The position numbers and the translations under genes were made by a program. Positions 12,364 to 28,429 of a stretch of DNA of 64,000 nucleotides are shown one piece after another (position 1 is the first letter of the stretch; each line of letters starts with the position of its first letter). Source of the DNA: Acidobacteriota bacterium. Its GTDB lineage: Bacteria > Acidobacteriota > Blastocatellia > UBA7656. The notes beneath the pieces were generated by a model. That model worked only from the letters and a program-made list of their open reading frames with translations, did no database searches and was not told the origin of the DNA. The stretch lies in the NCBI GenBank assembly GCA_038040445.1, contig JBBPIG010000004.1, positions 142,190 through 206,189 on the forward strand, written 5' to 3'.

Positions 12364-12709
12364 GGAACGGCTCTCGATCCCCGGAAGCAAATCCCGATCA
12401 CCTAACCAGAGGTGCGATCTTCTTCAGATCGTCGATGAAAGGGGCAAGGTCGGTCGGCCTCTCGGGAATAAGACTTCTGCTGAGCCTTGAGATTTTCGCC
12501 TGGCCACGACTCTGCAACCAATTGGCGTCCTTAATAATTGATATTATGCTTGACAGCAATACACGAACAAGCGCAGAGTTATTTTCGAAAATCTTCAGAG
12601 ATTTTCGATTCGAGGACATCCCTCGTGGGCGCCTCCGGCGATTCAAGAGCACGCTATTGAAAGAGGGACGCCGCCGAGGGACGACCTACATGCTTCTGAA
12701 GGAACCGCT
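12364..12709. other. Upstream region of imuA, 346 bp without a convincing gene
   Basis: It holds AT-rich promoter-like sequence (TATTAT, TTGACA at 12550) and ATTTTCG words at 12492-12498, 12581-12587 and 12601-12607. A short ORF ending at 12713 overlaps the imuA start by 4 bp but has no family resemblance. Confidence 0.5.
12581..12607 (+). promoter_or_regulatory. Candidate SOS operator of imuA (ATTTTCG pair, 20-bp period)
   Basis: Two identical ATTTTCG boxes start at 12581 and 12601, exactly two helical turns apart. The same box occurs with a 10-bp period in the promoters at 22398-22430 and 27418-27450, and the intervening CAGAGATTTTCG segment is also shared with the latter. The LexA role is inference. 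Confidence 0.4.
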
Positions 12710-13444
12710 TTGAAGCTCGCGTTTTCAAAAGCAGAAATCCAATCCGAGCTGGCGCAGCGTTTCGGCTCTGCGTTCAAGCTGCGGGAGAAACCGGCGGCAG
12801 AAGTGATGTCCACCGGCATCCCCGAAGTCGATCGCATTGCGGGCGGTCTCCCGCGGGGAGCCGTCACTGAAATTCTCGGTCCCGCATCATCGGGCCGCAC
12901 AAGCTTTCTTCATTCTGCGCTGGCCGCGTCCACTACTTGTCAGGAAGTATGCGCTCTGGTGGACGCCAGCGACTCGTTCGACGCCACATCGTCTGCCAAG
13001 GCCGGCGTAGACTTCCAGCAACTGCTCTGGATACGCTGCGCCTCGAACGTCGAGCACGCAATCAAAGCAACCGATCTTCTGTTGCAGAGCGGCGGCTTTG
13101 GGCTGGTAGCACTGGACCTTGGAGACATTTCTCCCCAGCAGTCTCGCCGCATTCAATTGAGCTGGTGGTTTCGTTTCCGCCGAGCGATCGAGAACACGCC
13201 GACGGCAATGCTTGTAATCAGCCGCGATCCAAACGCGCGGTCTTGCGCATCGCTTGTCTTGGAGCTGAACAGAGAAAGCGTGGAGTGGTTGCGGCCATCC
13301 GCATCGCCTGGCCTAAAAGAAGCCTTGCTTCCGACGTGTGCGAATCTCCTCGGCGGCTTTCAGCTTCACGTCCAGCGATGCAAACCGGTGTGTCTGGATG
13401 AACGAGAAGCTCGCTTTGAAGCGAAAGGTTGTTGGCTCGGTTGA
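12710..13444 (+). CDS. imuA: ImuA, RecA-like mutasome component
   Basis: A 244-residue RecA/SulA-like protein. The N-terminus has VMSTGIPEVDRIAGGLPRGAVTEILGPASSGRTS, a RecA-style P-loop in which the canonical GKT is replaced by GRT, then VDASDSFDA and LVALDLGDI strands. ImuA works with ImuB and DnaE2 in SOS translesion synthesis. The start is TTG at 12710 with GAAGGA six bases upstream; no ATG or GTG exists in the open frame before it. Unusually, it is separated from imuB-dnaE2 by several kilobases containing VapBC and LigA. Confidence 0.82.
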   Translation: MKLAFSKAEIQSELAQRFGSAFKLREKPAAEVMSTGIPEVDRIAGGLPRGAVTEILGPASSGRTSFLHSALAASTTCQEVCALVDASDSFDATSSAKAGVDFQQLLWIRCASNVEHAIKATDLLLQSGGFGLVALDLGDISPQQSRRIQLSWWFRFRRAIENTPTAMLVISRDPNARSCASLVLELNRESVEWLRPSASPGLKEALLPTCANLLGGFQLHVQRCKPVCLDEREARFEAKGCWLG

Positions 13445-17433: not shown

Positions 17434-20400
17434 TTAATGAAAATCGTGCGAAGCCGCGGCCGTCATCGCGTACGACAGCGGCTGAATGCGCCGAGCTTTG
17501 ACGTGAATCACCCCATCCTGATTCTGCAACACGCCGTCGATCAGAAGCAGCGGCTGATTCACCAACACTAAATGATTGCGGTCGAAGATATCCGGCGTAA
17601 CGATTATGTTCGAGATGCCGGTCTCGTCTTCCATGCTCAAGAACAAAAACCCTTTCGCCGTTCCGGGCCGTTGGCGAACGATGACCCACCCGGCAACCCT
17701 TACCCAAACGCCGTTGCGTATCTCGCGCAGATCAATCGCACGCTTGACACCGAGCTTGTTCAATTCGTCGCGGCGATAAGCGAGCGGATGCTTTCCTACC
17801 GTAAGCCCTGTTCCGCGAAAGTCCGCGTTCACCCGCTCTTCTATCGTCATAGGCGGAAGCGGCGATTCGGCATTCTGATCCTTCTGTTCTTTGAGCAGAG
17901 GCCCAACCGCCCGAGCCGCGCGTTCGACTTGCCAAAGCGCGCTGCGACGATGCAAGAATTGACCGTCGACCGTCGACCGCCGACCGTCTACTGCTGACCG
18001 ACCGTCGACCGTCGACCGCCGACCGTCTACTACTGACTGACCTCTGATGAAATTCAGCGCGCCAACCTCTGCGAGTTTTCTCATCTCATCCTTGCGAAGC
18101 TCGGGCACGCGGTTGTGCAGATCGTCGATGTCAACATACGAGCCCTTCGCACGTTCACGCACGAGCGCGCACGCGGCTTCTTCTCGAAGCCCTTTTACGT
18201 ATCGCATGCCAAGCCGAAGATCGGGGGCTGGGGGTCGGGGGTCGGGGGTCAGGGGTCGGGGATTGGGGGTTGGGGGTTGGGGATTGGTAGACGAATAAGA
18301 AGCTCGCTCTTCAGCAACCCAACCCCCATCCCCTGACCCCCATCCCCCATCTTCAATCGTGCATTCCCAGTCCGAACAAGTGATGTCGATGGGCTTGATC
18401 TTCAGCCCGTGCCGCTGCGCGTCCTTGATAATCGTAGCCGGGTGATAGAAACCCATCGGTTGATTGTTCAGGATCGCAGCAGTGAACGCGGCAAGATAGT
18501 GGCACTTCAAATAAGCGCTTGCGTATGCGATCAGCGCGAAGCTCGCAGCGTGCGATTCGGGGAAGCCATATAGCGCGAATGAAGTAATTGCTTGAACGAT
18601 TTTATCCTGAGTCTCGCCGGTGATTCCGTTGCGCTCCATGCCACGCCGCAGCTTGATATCGATTTCCTGCATGCGCGCTTCGGAACGCTTGAAGCCCATC
18701 GCGCGCCTGAGCTCTTCGGCTTCACCTCCGGTGAAGTTCGCGCAGATCATCGCGATGCGCAGCAACTGTTCTTGAAACAGCGGCACCCCGAGCGTGCGCT
18801 TCAACACCGGTTCAAGCGAAGGGTGCAAACACGCAGGCTCTTCCCTGCCAAGCCGCCGATTCAGATAAGGATGGACCATGTTGCCGACTATCGGGCCGGG
18901 TCGAATGATGGCCACCTGCACCACGATGTCGTAAAACTTTTGAGGCCGCAACCGCGGAAGACAAGACATCTGCGCGCGGCTTTCGACCTGGAACAAGCCA
19001 ATCGTGTCAGCCTTACACAGCGCGTCGTAGACAGCCGGGTCGTCTTGCGGAAGATGCGCCAGATCTACTTCCTCATCGTAATGATCGCGAATCAACGTCA
19101 GGCATTCTTCAATCGCAGCCATCATTCCGAGGCCCAGCAAATCGACTTTGATGATGCCCATATCGGCGCAGTCTTCTTTGTCCCACTGAACGACCACGCG
19201 GCCGGGCATTGCCGCGGGCTCGAGCGGAACAACCGAATCGAGTTGTCCCTGACAGATCACCATCCCGCCCGAGTGCTGACCCAGATGGCGCGGCAGGTCT
19301 TGCACGGCCACATAAAGCTCGAAGAATTTCTTGATGCGCGGGTCCAACAGATCGAGCCCGGCGTCGCGGAACTGACGCTCGGTTGTGTCCTTCGGATCGT
19401 GCCATTCAAAAGCGCGCACCAGACTTGAAAGCCGAGTGATCGTTTCTTCATCAAAGCCCATCGCCTTGCCAACTTCGCGCGCCGCCGAACGGCCGCGATA
19501 AGTGATGCAGTTTGCGGTCATCGCCGCGCCGTGTGTGCCGTAACGCTGATAGACGTGTTGAATCACGCGCTCACGCTGATCGCCGCTCGGCAAATCGAGG
19601 TCTATATCCGGCCATTCGCCTCGTTCTTCGGAGAGGAAGCGTTCGAACAACAGCTCCATGCCGACCGGATCGACGGCGGTTATTCCAAGCGAGTAACACA
19701 CCGCGCTGTTGGCCGCCGAGCCGCGGCCTTGAACCAGGATTCTTTGATCCCGGCAGAAGTTGATGATGTCCCAAACGATCAGAAAGTAACCCGCGAGATG
19801 AAGCTTCTCGATCAAGGCAAGCTCGCGATCGATCTGTTGAAGCGCACGCTGGTAAGTCGGCGTTCCGTTCGCGCCGGTGTAGCGCCCCCGCGCGCCTTCG
19901 CAGGTGCGCTTGCGAAGAAACGAATCCATCGTCTCGCCGGCGGGGACGGGATACTTCGGAAATTCATACCCGAGATCCTCGAGAGTGAACTCAAGCCGGG
20001 AAGAAAGCTCAACCGTATTTGCGATTGCCTGGGGCAGGTCGGCAAACAGCTTCGACATTGAAGAAGCCGTCTTTAAATAACGTTCGGAATTTCGACCGAG
20101 CAATCGCCCGGCAGCTTCAAGCTGCACATGGTTACGAACACAGGTCAACACGTCGGCAAGCTGACGGCGCGCGGCGCTGGCGTAGCACACGCCGTTGGTG
20201 GCAAGCAGCGGGAGCCTGAGCCTTCGCGCTATTTCTATCAGCGCCTGATTGCGCGATTCTTCTTCGCGATTGAAATGGCGTTGAAGCTCGGCCTGGACGT
20301 TGCCCCTCCCGAATATGTCAACAAGCCTTTCGGTTAACCTGGCCGCTTCATCAAGACCGCCGCTTCCGAGCGCGTGCGAGAGCGGCCCATCATCTCCGCC

Positions 20401-20829
20401 GGTCAAACAAGTCAATCCCCCGGCATGCTCAGCCAGTTCGTCCAAGGTGGCCGCGACTTCGCCGGGCTTTGCGTGCTTCGGAGCGCGAAGCTTAATTAGA
20501 GTGATCAAGCGGCAGAGGTTCTGATAGCCCGCGCGGTTCCGGACTAACAAAGGAAGAGTCGTGATGCGCGGGGACTCGTGATGCGTGATGCGTGATGCGT
20601 GACCGGTTGCGAGTACAACGCTTATCTCTGCGCCGATGTGAGCTTTGATCCCGGTCTTTTTCGCCGCCATATGAAACCGCGGCGCGCCGTAGACCCCGTC
20701 GCGGTCGAGCAGCGCCATCGCCGAGCCTCCGAGTTCCGCGCACACGGATGCCAGTTCTTCCGGAAGCGACGCGCCTTCCAGAAAGCTGAACGCGGATCGC
20801 GCGTGGAGTTCAACGTAGTCTTCGGTCAT
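17434..20829 (-). CDS. dnaE2: Error-prone DNA polymerase III alpha DnaE2 with low-complexity insertions
   Basis: A 1131-residue replacement for PolIII alpha in SOS mutagenesis. It has the N-terminal PHP domain (ELHARSAFSFLEGAS), the palm with WPDIDLDLPSGDQRERV, the VQGRGSAANSAVCYSLG block, the helix-hairpin-helix SRAQMSCLPRLRPQKFYD region and a C-terminal OB fold. The start at 20829 (MTEDYVELHA) is the family start. It is longer than usual because three repeat-derived insertions sit at about residues 75-86, 827-870 and 931-958, between conserved blocks. It follows imuB on the same strand, separated by 116 bp holding a hairpin. Confidence 0.95.
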   Translation of the reverse strand: MTEDYVELHARSAFSFLEGASLPEELASVCAELGGSAMALLDRDGVYGAPRFHMAAKKTGIKAHIGAEISVVLATGHASRITHHESPRITTLPLLVRNRAGYQNLCRLITLIKLRAPKHAKPGEVAATLDELAEHAGGLTCLTGGDDGPLSHALGSGGLDEAARLTERLVDIFGRGNVQAELQRHFNREEESRNQALIEIARRLRLPLLATNGVCYASAARRQLADVLTCVRNHVQLEAAGRLLGRNSERYLKTASSMSKLFADLPQAIANTVELSSRLEFTLEDLGYEFPKYPVPAGETMDSFLRKRTCEGARGRYTGANGTPTYQRALQQIDRELALIEKLHLAGYFLIVWDIINFCRDQRILVQGRGSAANSAVCYSLGITAVDPVGMELLFERFLSEERGEWPDIDLDLPSGDQRERVIQHVYQRYGTHGAAMTANCITYRGRSAAREVGKAMGFDEETITRLSSLVRAFEWHDPKDTTERQFRDAGLDLLDPRIKKFFELYVAVQDLPRHLGQHSGGMVICQGQLDSVVPLEPAAMPGRVVVQWDKEDCADMGIIKVDLLGLGMMAAIEECLTLIRDHYDEEVDLAHLPQDDPAVYDALCKADTIGLFQVESRAQMSCLPRLRPQKFYDIVVQVAIIRPGPIVGNMVHPYLNRRLGREEPACLHPSLEPVLKRTLGVPLFQEQLLRIAMICANFTGGEAEELRRAMGFKRSEARMQEIDIKLRRGMERNGITGETQDKIVQAITSFALYGFPESHAASFALIAYASAYLKCHYLAAFTAAILNNQPMGFYHPATIIKDAQRHGLKIKPIDITCSDWECTIEDGGWGSGDGGWVAEERASYSSTNPQPPTPNPRPLTPDPRPPAPDLRLGMRYVKGLREEAACALVRERAKGSYVDIDDLHNRVPELRKDEMRKLAEVGALNFIRGQSVVDGRRSTVDGRSAVDGRRSTVDGQFLHRRSALWQVERAARAVGPLLKEQKDQNAESPLPPMTIEERVNADFRGTGLTVGKHPLAYRRDELNKLGVKRAIDLREIRNGVWVRVAGWVIVRQRPGTAKGFLFLSMEDETGISNIIVTPDIFDRNHLVLVNQPLLLIDGVLQNQDGVIHVKARRIQPLSYAMTAAASHDFH
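17961..18038. repeat. 39-bp tandem duplication of heptad repeats inside dnaE2
   Basis: Two adjacent copies of a 39-bp unit (starts 17961 and 18000), itself made of degenerate CCGTCGA heptamers. The 39-bp period equals 13 codons, so the protein repeats VDGRRSTVDG twice and the reading frame is kept. Confidence 0.9.
18217..18352. repeat. G-rich/C-rich heptad hairpin inside dnaE2
   Basis: Left arm 18217-18287 is a run of GGGGGTC/GGGGATT/GGGGGTT heptamers; right arm 18316-18352 is the complementary CCCCCAT/CCCCTGA run. The outer ends GAAGATCGGGG and CCCCATCTTC pair. The insert stays in frame and codes for Gly/Trp-rich and Pro-rich stretches (GGWGSGDGGW and NPQPPTPNPRPLTPDPRPP). Several G-runs give G-quadruplex potential on the plus strand. 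Confidence 0.9.
20578..20605. repeat. GTGATGC heptad repeat inside dnaE2
   Basis: Three exact GTGATGC units and a partial fourth, in the region coding for HASRITHHESPRIT near residue 80 of DnaE2. The same heptamer forms the hairpin at 48165-48296. Confidence 0.85.
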
Positions 20830-20853
20830 AACCAACTCTGCGTCTTTGCGAAT

Positions 20854-20914
20854 CTTGGCGGTCTTTGCGCGAAACGTTTCTCTGCGAATCATGTTTCGCG
20901 CAAAGAGCGCCAAG
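20854..20914. repeat. 22-bp inverted repeat between imuB and dnaE2
   Basis: Arms 20854-20875 and 20893-20914 match with one mismatch and contain CTTTGCG words. It lies in the 116-bp gap of the imuB-dnaE2 transcript and could act as an attenuator or RNA-stability hairpin. Confidence 0.8.
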
Positions 20915-20945
20915 TTCCGCAAAGCTCGCTACGGCCATTTAGCAA

Positions 20946-22355
20946 TCAGTCATATACCCCTTCAACAAACCACGCATCACTCCGCAAATCGTGATAGATG
21001 CGATAGAGCGTTCCCTTCTCCGAAGAAGCATCAGAACCAGCAACAGCTACATCCCACTCGTCGCGAGACCAGCGGTCCTCGGTCCACCAATCACCCGAAG
21101 TGCGCCACGGACCCGCCAGATGCAAAATCTTGCCGCGTATGCTTCGACCGGCTGCGGCTTGCGCTTTGATCCGAGTCGGCCAGCCGCCTGGTGTTTCGAC
21201 TTCCGCGCGCAACGGAGGACGAAACACTCTGAAGCCAAGAACGGATCGAGAATGGAGGATTGAAGATCGAGGATTGGCTCGCCCCCTCGCCCCCTCGCCC
21301 CCTCGCCCTGTCAGGTTATTAGCTCCGCGCGCTCGGCGTCCTCTGCGGTTAACGTCTCTCTTCACGATGAAACGCTTGATGCGAAAAGCTCCCGGCCGAT
21401 GCGTGTTCACCAACTCAGGCGAGCCGACGTTGTTTGCACCGACCAGTCTGGCGAGCCGCGCTAACGTCAGCTCTAACTTTTCCGGTTCAGGCGCGAGCGG
21501 CTGAAACAGTCCGTTCTGTATCGATCGGGGCTTCGCCGGTTCGCAGGTGATCGACACCGCGACGATCGCACACTTTGGTGGATGCGATTCGATGTCCAGC
21601 AGCAGCAACTTCAAAAAGACTCTGCCGTCGCGCATCGGAAAAGGCAGGCGAATCGCTCGCTCGTGTTCGGTTTTATCTTCAAGCTTCAATCGAAGCCTCA
21701 GTTCATCCACCGCCAGCCCGTGTGCTTGCAGGTTTGCGCAGAGCTGATTCAACAGTCGGGCAAGAATGAAAGAGAGCGGTTCGAGAAGCTCGATAGGATC
21801 ATCAAGCTCGAGGGATTTCTCGAACCCCGGCGCCGGCTTCGAAAGCAACAACGGGCGATCGGTTTCACCGCAAGCGAGCTTTTGCAACCGCACACCCTCA
21901 GGCCCGAGCCGCTCGGAGACTCCCGCTTCGGGCAATGCCGCGAAATCGCGAAAGCTTCGGATGCCCCAAAGCTCGAGCGTCTCTAAAATCTCCGCCGCGC
22001 GATCAGCTTCGACGCGAGCCAGAGAAGCATCCAGCGACGCGAGCGGCAAATCACCGAGGCGTTTTGCTTCTTTGCCGGGATGGATGACGGTTATGCCACC
22101 GAAACTTCTTGCCGCATGAATGGCCGCATCAGGATCTCGAGCAATGGCTACATTGACTTTGAGACCGAGCTCCGCGGCGTGGCGCGCGATCTCTTTTGCA
22201 ATCTCGCGAGGCGAGCCGAACAACAACTCGCAGCCTTCGATGTCCAGCACGACCGTGTTCCCGGCGGTCTCTTCCACCAGCGGCGAGAACGCGTAAGCAC
22301 AGTCCACCAGCGTCGCATGATTCTTGAGATTGGGGCTATGAATACACGCGAACAT
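20946..22355 (-). CDS. imuB: ImuB, catalytically inactive Y-family polymerase homologue
   Basis: A 469-residue protein from the ATG at 22355; MFACIHSPNL is the usual ImuB start, and a near-consensus promoter at 22402-22430 lies just upstream of it, which rules out the longer reading from 22430. It has the Y-family layout (VLDIEGCELLFG, GLKVNVAIARDPDAA, LWGIRSFRDFAALPE, ERLGPEGVRLQKLACG) but lacks the acidic catalytic pair, as known for ImuB, which bridges DnaE2 to the beta clamp. A repeat-derived stretch of about 45 residues (RRGRRARGAN ... RSSILHSRS) interrupts the C-terminal part before GFRVFRPPLRAEVE. Confidence 0.92.
   Translation of the reverse strand: MFACIHSPNLKNHATLVDCAYAFSPLVEETAGNTVVLDIEGCELLFGSPREIAKEIARHAAELGLKVNVAIARDPDAAIHAARSFGGITVIHPGKEAKRLGDLPLASLDASLARVEADRAAEILETLELWGIRSFRDFAALPEAGVSERLGPEGVRLQKLACGETDRPLLLSKPAPGFEKSLELDDPIELLEPLSFILARLLNQLCANLQAHGLAVDELRLRLKLEDKTEHERAIRLPFPMRDGRVFLKLLLLDIESHPPKCAIVAVSITCEPAKPRSIQNGLFQPLAPEPEKLELTLARLARLVGANNVGSPELVNTHRPGAFRIKRFIVKRDVNRRGRRARGANNLTGRGGEGARGRANPRSSILHSRSVLGFRVFRPPLRAEVETPGGWPTRIKAQAAAGRSIRGKILHLAGPWRTSGDWWTEDRWSRDEWDVAVAGSDASSEKGTLYRIYHDLRSDAWFVEGVYD
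21243..21309. repeat. Two adjacent tandem repeats inside imuB
   Basis: Five degenerate GGATTGA-type heptamers (21243-21277) are followed by four CTCGCCCC octamers (21278-21309, last one CTCGCCCT). Both are in frame in the imuB coding sequence and correspond to the stretch missing from typical ImuB proteins. Confidence 0.85.
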
Positions 22356-22397
22356 TTCAAATCCGTTCCGAGCTTTCCCAGTTATCCGAAAATCCAT

Positions 22398-22430
22398 CGA
22401 ATATATACGAAAATAATCTAAAATCGTCAA
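22398..22430 (-). promoter_or_regulatory. imuB-dnaE2 promoter with candidate SOS operator
   Basis: On the minus strand -35 TTGACG (22430-22425), a 17-bp spacer and -10 TATATA (22407-22402). The -10 lies inside ATTTTCG-TAT-ATATTCG (22414-22398), a direct repeat with a 10-bp period. Twenty-six of 34 positions match the element at 27418-27450. The divergent HhH-GPD gene shares this gap. Confidence 0.7.
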
Positions 22431-22507
22431 GCTCTCGAATCTCCGTTGCTTTCAGGGGCGAAGCCTTGATCCATGTGCCTCTGTGTCGTGATAATCGAGT
22501 GTCGCGA

Positions 22508-23302
22508 ATGGCAGAAAAGAAAAACAAAAGATCGGAACACATGAGCGATGCGTTGTTTGGTGAGTTAAAGGAATCGCTAGGGCAAGCTTTGCAACATGCT
22601 CGCGGCAAGTCTTTCCAAAACATCATCGACGAGCTGCGGGAATTCTATGGCCCGCCCGAGCCACCCAAGGTCACCGATCCGCTGGGGATCATCTTGCTCG
22701 AGAACGTCGCTTACCTGGTGAGTGACGAGCGCCGCGAGCAAGCCTTCGACGCTCTTCGCGAGCGAGTCGGCCTAACGCCGCCTGAAATCCTCATGGCTCA
22801 CGAGGAGACCTTGCTCGAAGTGGCCCGCCTCGGGGGAATGCATCCTGCCGCGCGGGTGGAAAAACTCCGGCGCATCGCGCAGATTGCGCTGCAACAGTTC
22901 GATGGCGACCTCGACAAAGTCCTCAAGCTGCCCCTTGCTCAGGCAAAGAAATCATTGAAGAAGTTTTCGGGAATCGGTGACCCAGGCGCGGAAAAAATAT
23001 TGCTCGTCTCGAAGACCCATCCGATCCTCGCACTGGATTCGAACGGGCTGCGAGTGCTGCTGCGACTTGGCTATGGCGAAGAGCGAAAGAGCTACTCTTC
23101 GACCTATCGCTCGGCGCAAGAGGCGGTCAAGGACGAGTTGAAGAAAGACTACGATTGGTTGATTGCGGCTCATCAACTACTGCGCCGTCACGGGCAGGAG
23201 CTGTGCAAAAGGATCGAGCCGTTGTGCCCGTCCTGCCCGGTGAAATCGAGCTGCCGATACTATCAAGAGAATGCGCGGAAGAGCATGGAGTTCAGGCTTT
23301 AG
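22508..23302 (+). CDS. HhH-GPD base-excision DNA glycosylase with [4Fe-4S] cluster motif
   Basis: A 264-residue relative of endonuclease III. The helix-hairpin-helix reads FSGIGDPGAEKIL, followed by the catalytic Asp in LALDSNGLRVLLRLGY and a C-terminal CX6CX2CX5C iron-sulfur loop (CKRIEPLCPSCPVKSSC). The Lys of the canonical GVGRKTA loop is replaced by Pro, so beta-lyase activity is doubtful and it may be monofunctional. The ATG at 22508 is chosen over the reading at 22466. It is divergent from imuB and may share its control. The last residues MEFRL and the stop are supplied by a long inverted repeat. Confidence 0.85.
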   Translation: MAEKKNKRSEHMSDALFGELKESLGQALQHARGKSFQNIIDELREFYGPPEPPKVTDPLGIILLENVAYLVSDERREQAFDALRERVGLTPPEILMAHEETLLEVARLGGMHPAARVEKLRRIAQIALQQFDGDLDKVLKLPLAQAKKSLKKFSGIGDPGAEKILLVSKTHPILALDSNGLRVLLRLGYGEERKSYSSTYRSAQEAVKDELKKDYDWLIAAHQLLRRHGQELCKRIEPLCPSCPVKSSCRYYQENARKSMEFRL

Positions 23303-26877: not shown

Positions 26878-27087
26878 TCAAGTGCCTCTTCCAAGTTTGT
26901 AGACTTCCCGAAGCGCTTTGATCATCATTTGCTCGGTCACATATCTGGGATCCGCAAGCCAGCGCTCGACCGCTGTAGCCAAAGCTTCGAGCCTCGCAAT
27001 CCGCTCTTCTTTGTTCTGAGTGCTCGCCTTTGACACCCGTCTCTCGTGCTGCGATGCGTCACATTGCGCTTCGCCGCAAAACCGCAA
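26878..27087 (-). CDS. Small hypothetical protein
   Basis: A 69-residue reading frame with a helical, protein-like C-terminus (RIARLEALATAVERWLADPRYVTEQMMIKALREVYKLGRG). The start would be TTG at 27087 or a GTG further in. It overlaps the end of the ORF at 27059-27373 in another frame. It may be the second gene of the transcript from the promoter at 27418-27450, or the frame-broken tail of one gene. Confidence 0.4.
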   Translation of the reverse strand: MRFCGEAQCDASQHERRVSKASTQNKEERIARLEALATAVERWLADPRYVTEQMMIKALREVYKLGRGT

Positions 27088-27373
27088 CCTTGCGATCCAT
27101 CCTCGATCGAGACCTGTCTATCCTGAAAACCGCCGAGCCAGCGGGGATCTCGCCCGCCTGTGCCACCAGCCAATCAACATTGTGCCCCGGAACGAAACCA
27201 CCCGAGGCAATGGTCAGGATCTCCGTGCGGCTGCGCGCGCGCCTCGTCTGAATTTTTCCGATCTCGTATCCGTCCAACAGAACCCTGTCTCGCCTGCACC
27301 AGCCCCCAAACGTGTTTACCTTTCGGCCTGGTTCTATTCTCAATCTCGCTCTTATCGCTTGCTGTATAGTCAT
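27059..27373 (-). CDS. Hypothetical protein downstream of the candidate SOS promoter
   Basis: A 104-residue frame beginning with ATG at 27373, with AAGGTG about seven bases before it. It contains a protein-like stretch TIASGGFVPGHNVDWLVAQAG. It lies about 45 bp after the near-consensus promoter at 27418-27450. No family is recognised; a 77-residue frame starting at 27407 is an alternative, and a frameshift between them is possible. Confidence 0.4.
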   Translation of the reverse strand: MTIQQAIRARLRIEPGRKVNTFGGWCRRDRVLLDGYEIGKIQTRRARSRTEILTIASGGFVPGHNVDWLVAQAGEIPAGSAVFRIDRSRSRMDRKVAVLRRSAM

Positions 27374-27417: not shown

Positions 27418-27450
27418 CGAAAATATACGAAAATCTCTGAACATTGTCAA
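27418..27450 (-). promoter_or_regulatory. Leftward promoter with candidate SOS operator
   Basis: On the minus strand -35 TTGACA (27450-27445), 17-bp spacer, -10 TATATT (27427-27422). ATTTTCG-TAT-ATTTTCG (27434-27418) is an exact direct repeat with a 10-bp period covering the -10 box. It corresponds base for base in position to the imuB promoter element at 22398-22430. Confidence 0.7.
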
Positions 27451-27519
27451 GAACTATTTTCGCTCGCCGTATGCACTTTTTTCTTGACATTACCGGGGCT
27501 GGTATTCGACAATGTTCAG
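27437..27519. repeat. 12-bp inverted repeat upstream of lexA
   Basis: CTGAACATTGTC at 27437-27448 and GACAATGTTCAG at 27508-27519 are exact reverse complements 59 bp apart. The left arm overlaps the -35 box of the leftward promoter; the right arm follows a TTGACA at 27484 that may be the -35 of a rightward lexA promoter. Confidence 0.6.
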
Positions 27520-27595
27520 TGAATTTTCAGGACGGTGCGAAAGTAGGAATTGGGCTTTAGTCTGTGAGCTTCAGAGTCATGCGGGCGGACGAGAT

Positions 27596-27803
27596 CAGAC
27601 TGAAGTCTGGGCAGCAACCACGTAGTGGTCAAATGTTTGTAGTAATCGGCGGCGACAAGTCCTCACCCCGGCCGGTTGAAATGTCGGCTGGTGTCGAAGT
27701 CGTCTAATCGTACATCCAACTCCTGACGGAGTTGGCCCGTGGCGGTAGACATCATCGTACAAACATTGAACTCCTCGGGGGTTGCTATACAGACTGAAGT
27801 CTG
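27596..27803. repeat. Cluster of small REP-like palindromes upstream of lexA
   Basis: Short palindromes CAGAC-TGAA-GTCTG (27596-27609 and again 27790-27803), ACCAC-GTA-GTGGT (27618-27630) and CCAACTCC-TGAC-GGAGTTGG (27716-27735). A larger imperfect inverted relation links GCAACC...TGTTTGTA near 27612-27641 with TACAAACA...GGTTGC near 27757-27785. The last palindrome ends 18 bp before the lexA start. Confidence 0.75.
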
Positions 27804-27820
27804 TGCTACCTGGAGGCGAT

Positions 27821-28429
27821 ATGGTCACACCAAGACAGCGACAGATCTATGACTACCTTTGCCGTTACGCCGATGCGCACAGCTATGCGCCAACGATGGC
27901 GGAGATCGGCAAACAATTCAAGCTCAGCTCGCCGGCAAGCGTTCACCACATTTTAGCGGGACTGGAACGTGAGGGGCTGATCCGCCGCATCCCGAACGTA
28001 AGCCGCGGCATCGAGGTCGTGAGAGAAGAAGCCTCGGAACAGGACTTCGAGATACCGTTGCTGGGTGTAGTCGCAGCCGGCCAACCGATAGAAGCAATCC
28101 TCAGCCACGAAACCATCTGCGTGCCGCGCGATTTCATGGGCCGCGAGCGCCTGTTCGCGCTTCGCGTGCGCGGCGATTCGATGATCGGCGAGCAAATACG
28201 CGAAGGCGACTGCATCATCGTCGAGTCGCGCCAGACGGCTAACAACGGCGAGATGGTCGTAGCGCTGGTGGATGGGAGCGACGCGACGGTGAAGACTTTT
28301 TTCAAGGAACGCAATCAGATAAGACTCGAGCCGGCTAACCCGCGATATAAACCGATCATCGTTAGCCCGCCCGATCGCGTGACGATTCAGGGCGTCGTAA
28401 AGGGGCTTATTCGTAAGTACAAACGGTGA
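27821..28429 (+). CDS. lexA: LexA SOS repressor
   Basis: A 202-residue repressor. The winged helix is at the N-terminus (TPRQRQIYDYLCRYADAHSYAPTMAEIGKQFKLSS), the self-cleavage site is Ala86-Gly87 in GVVAAGQP, and the Ser/Lys dyad is Ser120 (VRGDSM) and Lys158 (DATVKTFF). The ATG at 27821 with GGAGG at 27811-27815 is chosen over a reading from 27782. It should control imuA and imuB-dnaE2 and perhaps the divergent transcript upstream. Confidence 0.96.
   Translation: MVTPRQRQIYDYLCRYADAHSYAPTMAEIGKQFKLSSPASVHHILAGLEREGLIRRIPNVSRGIEVVREEASEQDFEIPLLGVVAAGQPIEAILSHETICVPRDFMGRERLFALRVRGDSMIGEQIREGDCIIVESRQTANNGEMVVALVDGSDATVKTFFKERNQIRLEPANPRYKPIIVSPPDRVTIQGVVKGLIRKYKR

Follow-up and report, generated by a model that had tools for sequence, protein, structure and literature searches.

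Which protein, if any, reads the repeated ATTTTCG that lies across the -10 box of the imuB-dnaE2 promoter, and why does a similar promoter stand beside lexA? We have explored this question in a window of 64,000 nucleotides, the whole stretch analysed here, from an Acidobacteriota bacterium of the class Blastocatellia. A first-pass annotation of this DNA had described both promoters, had noted a repeat with a 10-bp period over each -10 box and had named LexA as the natural candidate for the repressor. The two promoters read on the minus strand as it had reported (TTGACG-17-TATATA at imuB, 22430-22402; TTGACA-17-TATATT beside lexA, 27450-27422), and their agreement at 26 of 34 positions holds when counted by hand from the C before TTGAC. 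The repeat is also real, except that it consists of three copies (27418-27444) or four (22387-22424) rather than two. Our main reading, to which we give a probability of roughly 85%, is that these sites are predicted operators of the window genome's LexA, made of tandem arrays of three to four direct half-sites spaced one helical turn apart. The half-sites follow the consensus ATNTTCG with a step of 10 bp, the last step often being 11 bp, and the arrays are positioned over the core promoter, be it the spacer, the -10 box or the start. The window carries them at four places (Table 1): at imuB-dnaE2, at the divergent promoter beside lexA, at lexA's own promoter (a weaker copy) and at an imuA-like gene. 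Neither the imuA array (12581-12607) nor the degenerate lexA array (27502-27529) had been noticed in the first pass.

Table 1. Arrays, promoters and genes of the predicted LexA-controlled loci, in window coordinates
Feature	Position	Strand	Sequence or product	Evidence
imuA array, three units	12581..12607	+	ATTTTCG-ATCTTCA-ATTTTCG, steps 10, 10	pattern match; G004 copy
imuA-like gene	12710..13444	+	RecA fold	Pfam RecA 59 bits; NCBIfam ImuA 54.7 bits, below cut-off 150
dnaE2, downstream of imuB	17434..20922	-	error-prone DNA polymerase	NCBIfam PRK05672 1225 bits, cut-off 939
imuB	20946..22355	-	Y-family polymerase-like	weak Pfam IMS/IMS_C matches; homologues start MFACI
imuB-dnaE2 array, four units	22387..22424	-	ATTTTAG-10-ATTTTCG-10-ATATTCG-11-ATTTTCG	sequence; genome-wide pattern matches; conservation
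imuB promoter	22402..22430	-	TTGACG-17-TATATA	sequence; TTGAC-to-TTCG offsets same in related imuB promoters
ORF behind divergent promoter	27059..27373	-	104 aa	found only in G000 and G004, 81% identity
Array beside lexA, three units	27418..27444	-	ATGTTCA-ATTTTCG-ATTTTCG, steps 10, 10	pattern match; conserved in G004
Divergent promoter beside lexA	27422..27450	-	TTGACA-17-TATATT	sequence
lexA's own array	27502..27529	+	GTATTCG-ATGTTCA-ATTTTCA, steps 10, 11	sequence; synteny in G004; strong arrays in relatives
lexA, presumed ligand	27821..28429	+	winged HTH + S24 autoprotease	TIGR00498 181.8 bits, cut-off 110.95

At imuB, the array spans the promoter spacer, the -10 box and the start region. 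The ORF-caller had set the imuB start at 22430, which would place the array inside the gene; because homologues begin at MFACI, ATG 22355 is the likely start, and the array therefore lies upstream. All three genes of an ImuA-ImuB-DnaE2 cassette are present: dnaE2 is above its cut-off, and imuB and imuA, which stay below the curated ones, are assigned from homology and gene neighbourhood. The imuA orthologues of relatives sit between lexA and imuB; in the window, imuA is found 4 kb beyond dnaE2 with an array of its own, about 100 bp before the ORF and behind a TTGACA with a weak -10. A palindromic (inverted-repeat) reading of the imuA site was rejected, as it is not kept at L068 of G004, a genome of the same genus. 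The intergenic region of the imuB array is shared with a divergent gene on the plus strand (22466-23302), HhH-GPD DNA glycosylase-like with weak MutY/Nth similarity, which is possibly co-regulated with imuB.

The product of lexA matches Pfam LexA_DNA_bind and Peptidase_S24 and, when aligned with E. coli LexA, has the Ala-Gly self-cleavage site and the Ser/Lys dyad (VVAAG, GDSMI, ATVKT); judged by these motifs, it is a canonical cleavable LexA. The array of the gene itself lies over the -10 box, behind a TTGACA at 27484, and is degenerate, with two TTCA units. Downstream of it, in the interval 27530-27815, about 200 bp between the lexA promoter and lexA are missing from G004 and contain inverted-repeat sequence that includes two copies of CAGACTGAAGTCTG (27596, 27790); the lexA leader may here contain a small element of mobile or REP-like type. 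On the other side, the 104-aa ORF behind the divergent promoter has no Pfam or NCBIfam match. With 43 of its 66 base changes between G000 and G004 at third codon positions, this ORF looks to be under purifying selection, and it is possibly a member of the regulon, as a candidate genus-specific SOS gene.

Could such repeats arise by chance in an AT-rich promoter? The pair pattern that we searched (ATTTTCG-N3-ATTTTCG) is matched perfectly at 27418-27434 and with one mismatch at 22398-22414, but when up to three mismatches are allowed it occurs 12 times in the 64-kb window against 9.2 expected, which is the background level. The loose pair pattern is by itself no proof of anything, and this count is what speaks for chance. 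In the 6.75-Mb genome, however, pair matches with 0-1 mismatch are confined to the imuB region and the lexA-adjacent region, and the triple pattern (ATNTTCR-N3-ATNTTCR-N3-ATNTTCR) has exactly three matches with 0-1 mismatch, at imuA, at imuB and beside lexA, with no others below three mismatches. Weaker genome-wide matches (2-3 mismatches) lie mostly within ORFs or by unrelated genes, and none adjoins a recognised SOS gene. This specificity of the triple form, along with a conservation over genera and families that far exceeds shuffles, leaves chance hardly credible.

For the conservation, we located LexA homologues in 162 genomes of the class Blastocatellia, oriented the promoters by gene (with imuB starts set at the conserved MFACI) and scored the presence of at least three TTC[AG] at 10/11-bp steps, with dinucleotide shuffles as the null. 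Arrays were found in 24 of 30 orthologous lexA promoters (shuffle mean 0.07) and in 14 of 16 imuB promoters (shuffle mean 0.04), and strict TTCG gave 23 of 30 (0.01) and 11 of 16 (0.00), respectively; both the lexA and the imuB set draw heavily on two genera, so that their sequences are not independent. The array-bearing lexA promoters come from several families, including families without imuB (f3, f9). Exact matches to the strict array pattern numbered 44 in the 162 class genomes, 29 of them at lexA or imuB, versus 4 for the reversed control; outside the class (about 350 genomes, from a phylum sample of 396), there were 3 matches versus 1 in the control, which is background. Based on these genomes, the strict array form appears confined to Blastocatellia. 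A contig search with the window LexA led to one close relative only. In G004, the triple pattern fits best in the imuA region (0 mismatches), followed by imuB with 1 mismatch and the lexA-adjacent site with 2, a score shared by one match elsewhere, and the perfect imuA-region array adjoins the same peroxiredoxin gene as in the window.

The composition of the units indicates what is being conserved. Distances from one TTCG to another peak only at 10, 11, 20, 21, 30 and 31 and are flat otherwise, and the profile of 95 units, which had been selected on TTC, reads A (77%), T (87%), any base, TTC and G (91%), with inter-unit positions nearly free. Relative to the first T of TTGAC, the units stand at +9, +19 and +29 in imuB promoters and at +18, +28 and +39 in the lexA promoters of the commonest genus (offsets taken by hand), over the -10 box in both cases. 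CGAAAAT-type units at a 10-bp phase would be expected to curve DNA, and the repeats could be phased A/T tracts that bend the promoter, with no protein site at all. Against this, the best-conserved part of the unit is TTCG, the position preceding it varies almost freely, and numerous units read ATATTCG or ATCTTCG, without an A-tract; moreover, the arrays are largely restricted to the promoters of lexA and the imu genes, with a single case at recA. We have rejected A-tract curvature on the unit profile, and consider it very improbable.

If a protein reads the arrays, LexA is its likely identity. We favour it because lexA has arrays in its own promoter both in families that possess imuB and in those that do not, because recA carries one in G017, because imuB has none in G005, a genome where the window-type LexA was not found, and because the protein has the marks of a canonical cleavable LexA. 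The lexA of the window type is near imuA/imuB in most genomes having both. As a LexA operator should, the site occupies the promoter of lexA itself and is conserved among orthologues (24/30, the window copy being degenerate), and other SOS genes have it across their core promoters, namely imuB (over the -10 box), imuA and, in G017, recA, but not the recA of the window genome. Other observations count against this reading: besides the array-less recA and the degenerate lexA array of the window, window-type lexA has no array in G006, which belongs to the same family, nor in G151 or G152, and in G125 the array is kept at lexA with none at imuB.

A second LexA serves as a control. Many f8 genomes have one, about 38-47% identical to the LexA of the window, with SKATIAKHI as recognition helix versus S[SP]ASVHxI[LV] in the first type. 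Among 20 control lexA promoters, mostly paralogous and 11 of them from f8 genomes with both LexA types, none carries an array of at least three units and not even a strict pair is present; this set includes two LexAs from f4 that the tree places with the first type (L145, L146) and a divergent outlier (L139), so that the clean paralogue control is 17. When the array label is placed on a quick LexA tree, it requires 5 changes versus 18.6 with shuffled labels. The paralogue promoters (L127-L144) have in common roughly CTTGACGC...TAGAATNC.

A different arrangement would be that the array binds another mutasome regulator, such as a further protein of the winged-HTH or the XRE type, and that lexA is merely one of its targets. 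The binding of LexA to the array is after all a prediction, the regulon of the window genome is narrow and without recA, and co-regulators of DNA-damage genes do exist, such as DdiA in Myxococcus (PMC12288472). On the other hand, the presence of arrays at lexA clusters on the LexA tree, as the label changes indicate, and the array over recA in G017 occurs in a genome where imuB was not found; another regulator is therefore improbable in our view. The earlier proposal of LexA had been staked on copies near other SOS genes, and such copies exist at lexA in most relatives, at imuB (14/16), at imuA in this genus and at recA in G017, with none at the paralogue; they support LexA as the predicted regulator, while the recA of the window genome falls short of that expectation.

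Indeed, among the recA promoters of the window genome and 22 relatives, the strict array is present in none except that of G017, where the promoter TTGAAA-17-GAAAAT is accompanied by three perfect units; the f8 relatives covered all lack it at recA. A second perfect triple array of G017 (L209, G017:C30:36011) precedes a 332-aa coiled-coil-like protein without Pfam match. Because the window recA has no array, the predicted regulon of the window looks small, with lexA, imuA, imuB-dnaE2 and perhaps the 104-aa ORF as members and without recA as a target.

How do these arrays compare with known LexA sites? The Gram-positive LexA box, of the GAAC-N4-GTTC type, is an inverted repeat. Its half-site letters are related to ours (GTTC/TTCG), but the half-sites of the arrays are in direct order and multiple. 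The recognition helix of the window LexA (SPASVHHIL) resembles what we take to be the Gram-positive one (STVHGHL), a likeness that serves as a lead and not as a test. By 2021, 17 LexA motifs had been reported, with the GTTC-N7-GTTC of Alphaproteobacteria named as direct-repeat example (PMC8565304). The first-pass annotation had tentatively held the direct-repeat form to be non-standard; direct-repeat LexA boxes were thus already known, and what differs is the array of three to four units. The alphaproteobacterial box is the nearest among the known LexA forms, being likewise a direct repeat with a TTC-containing half-site and a LexA operator (predicted in our case). Yet it comprises two half-sites at 11 bp, whereas the Blastocatellia arrays have three to four ATNTTCG half-sites, mainly at 10 bp; they differ in half-site (G precedes TTC in 13% of the 95 units), in period (the main one being 10) and in unit number (at least three copies). 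Regarding the targets, Pseudomonas putida has a lexA2-imuA-imuB-imuC cassette, which encodes a dedicated LexA together with the mutagenesis genes under its control (PMC3901139). Here too a LexA is predicted to govern mutagenesis genes, and many relatives of the window genome likewise have a second LexA; the P. putida cassette is one operon, however, whereas in the window lexA, imuB-dnaE2 and imuA carry an array apiece, and the type of operator differs as well. Our literature search, which was incomplete and left most subscription journals outside, returned no published LexA site for Acidobacteriota or Blastocatellia. As far as we could find, a multi-half-site, helically phased direct-repeat operator has not been previously described for LexA.

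One LexA dimer normally recognises a pair of half-sites, and the arrays offer more than that. In our predicted mechanism, the DNA-binding domains of LexA would line up head to tail along one side of the helix, each on a half-site, and every operator would hold more than one dimer. The simplest reading would be two adjacent dimers, whose registers perhaps overlap where a site has three units, and which would cover the spacer, the -10 box and the start site. LexA so bound would exclude RNA polymerase. Upon DNA damage, RecA-stimulated self-cleavage of LexA would release lexA, imuA and imuB-dnaE2, and the ImuA-ImuB-DnaE2 mutasome would be made. We tentatively go one step further, at slightly less than even odds, and propose that the LexA of this clade binds three to four half-sites cooperatively, with two dimers or more assembled head to tail, that the number and phase of the units (10-10, 10-11, 10-10-11) set the tightness of each promoter, and that, with a second LexA present, it became a mutasome-dedicated repressor. 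It could also be that LexA is the ligand and that the functional unit is a half-site pair with one dimer, as in Alphaproteobacteria, the extra copies being overlapping registers or remnants. Two half-sites are enough there (PMC8565304), and some lexA genes of our set have arrays of two units (L058, L064). We find this rather unlikely, given that at least three units are kept in 24/30 lexA and 14/16 imuB promoters despite diverged spacers, and that four-unit 10-10-11 arrays are found in separate families (L051, L061, L107, L115).

The boxes of LexA are well known for evolving fast (17 motifs by 2021), yet the direct-repeat example of PMC8565304 consists of just a pair of half-sites; an operator with more units, in helical phase, puts to the test how direct repeats are read by a LexA dimer, which is symmetric. 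The Acidobacteriota, abundant soil bacteria, gain a testable SOS operator, and the arrays point to a LexA with mainly the error-prone mutasome as targets. Since the class also holds an array-less paralogue with a different recognition helix, it lends itself to following how the motif changes once the gene has been duplicated.

Some variation around the arrays deserves mention. In f8 lexA leaders (L042, L045-L047, L049, L050, L053, L056), an inverted copy follows the last unit (ATTTTCG-N8-CGAAAAT or similar) and is kept across species. The lexA and recA promoters of family f4 (L146, L206, L230, L235) have TTGACA followed by another shared element, roughly TTTGCCTATMTTTCRCT, which perhaps derives from the array.
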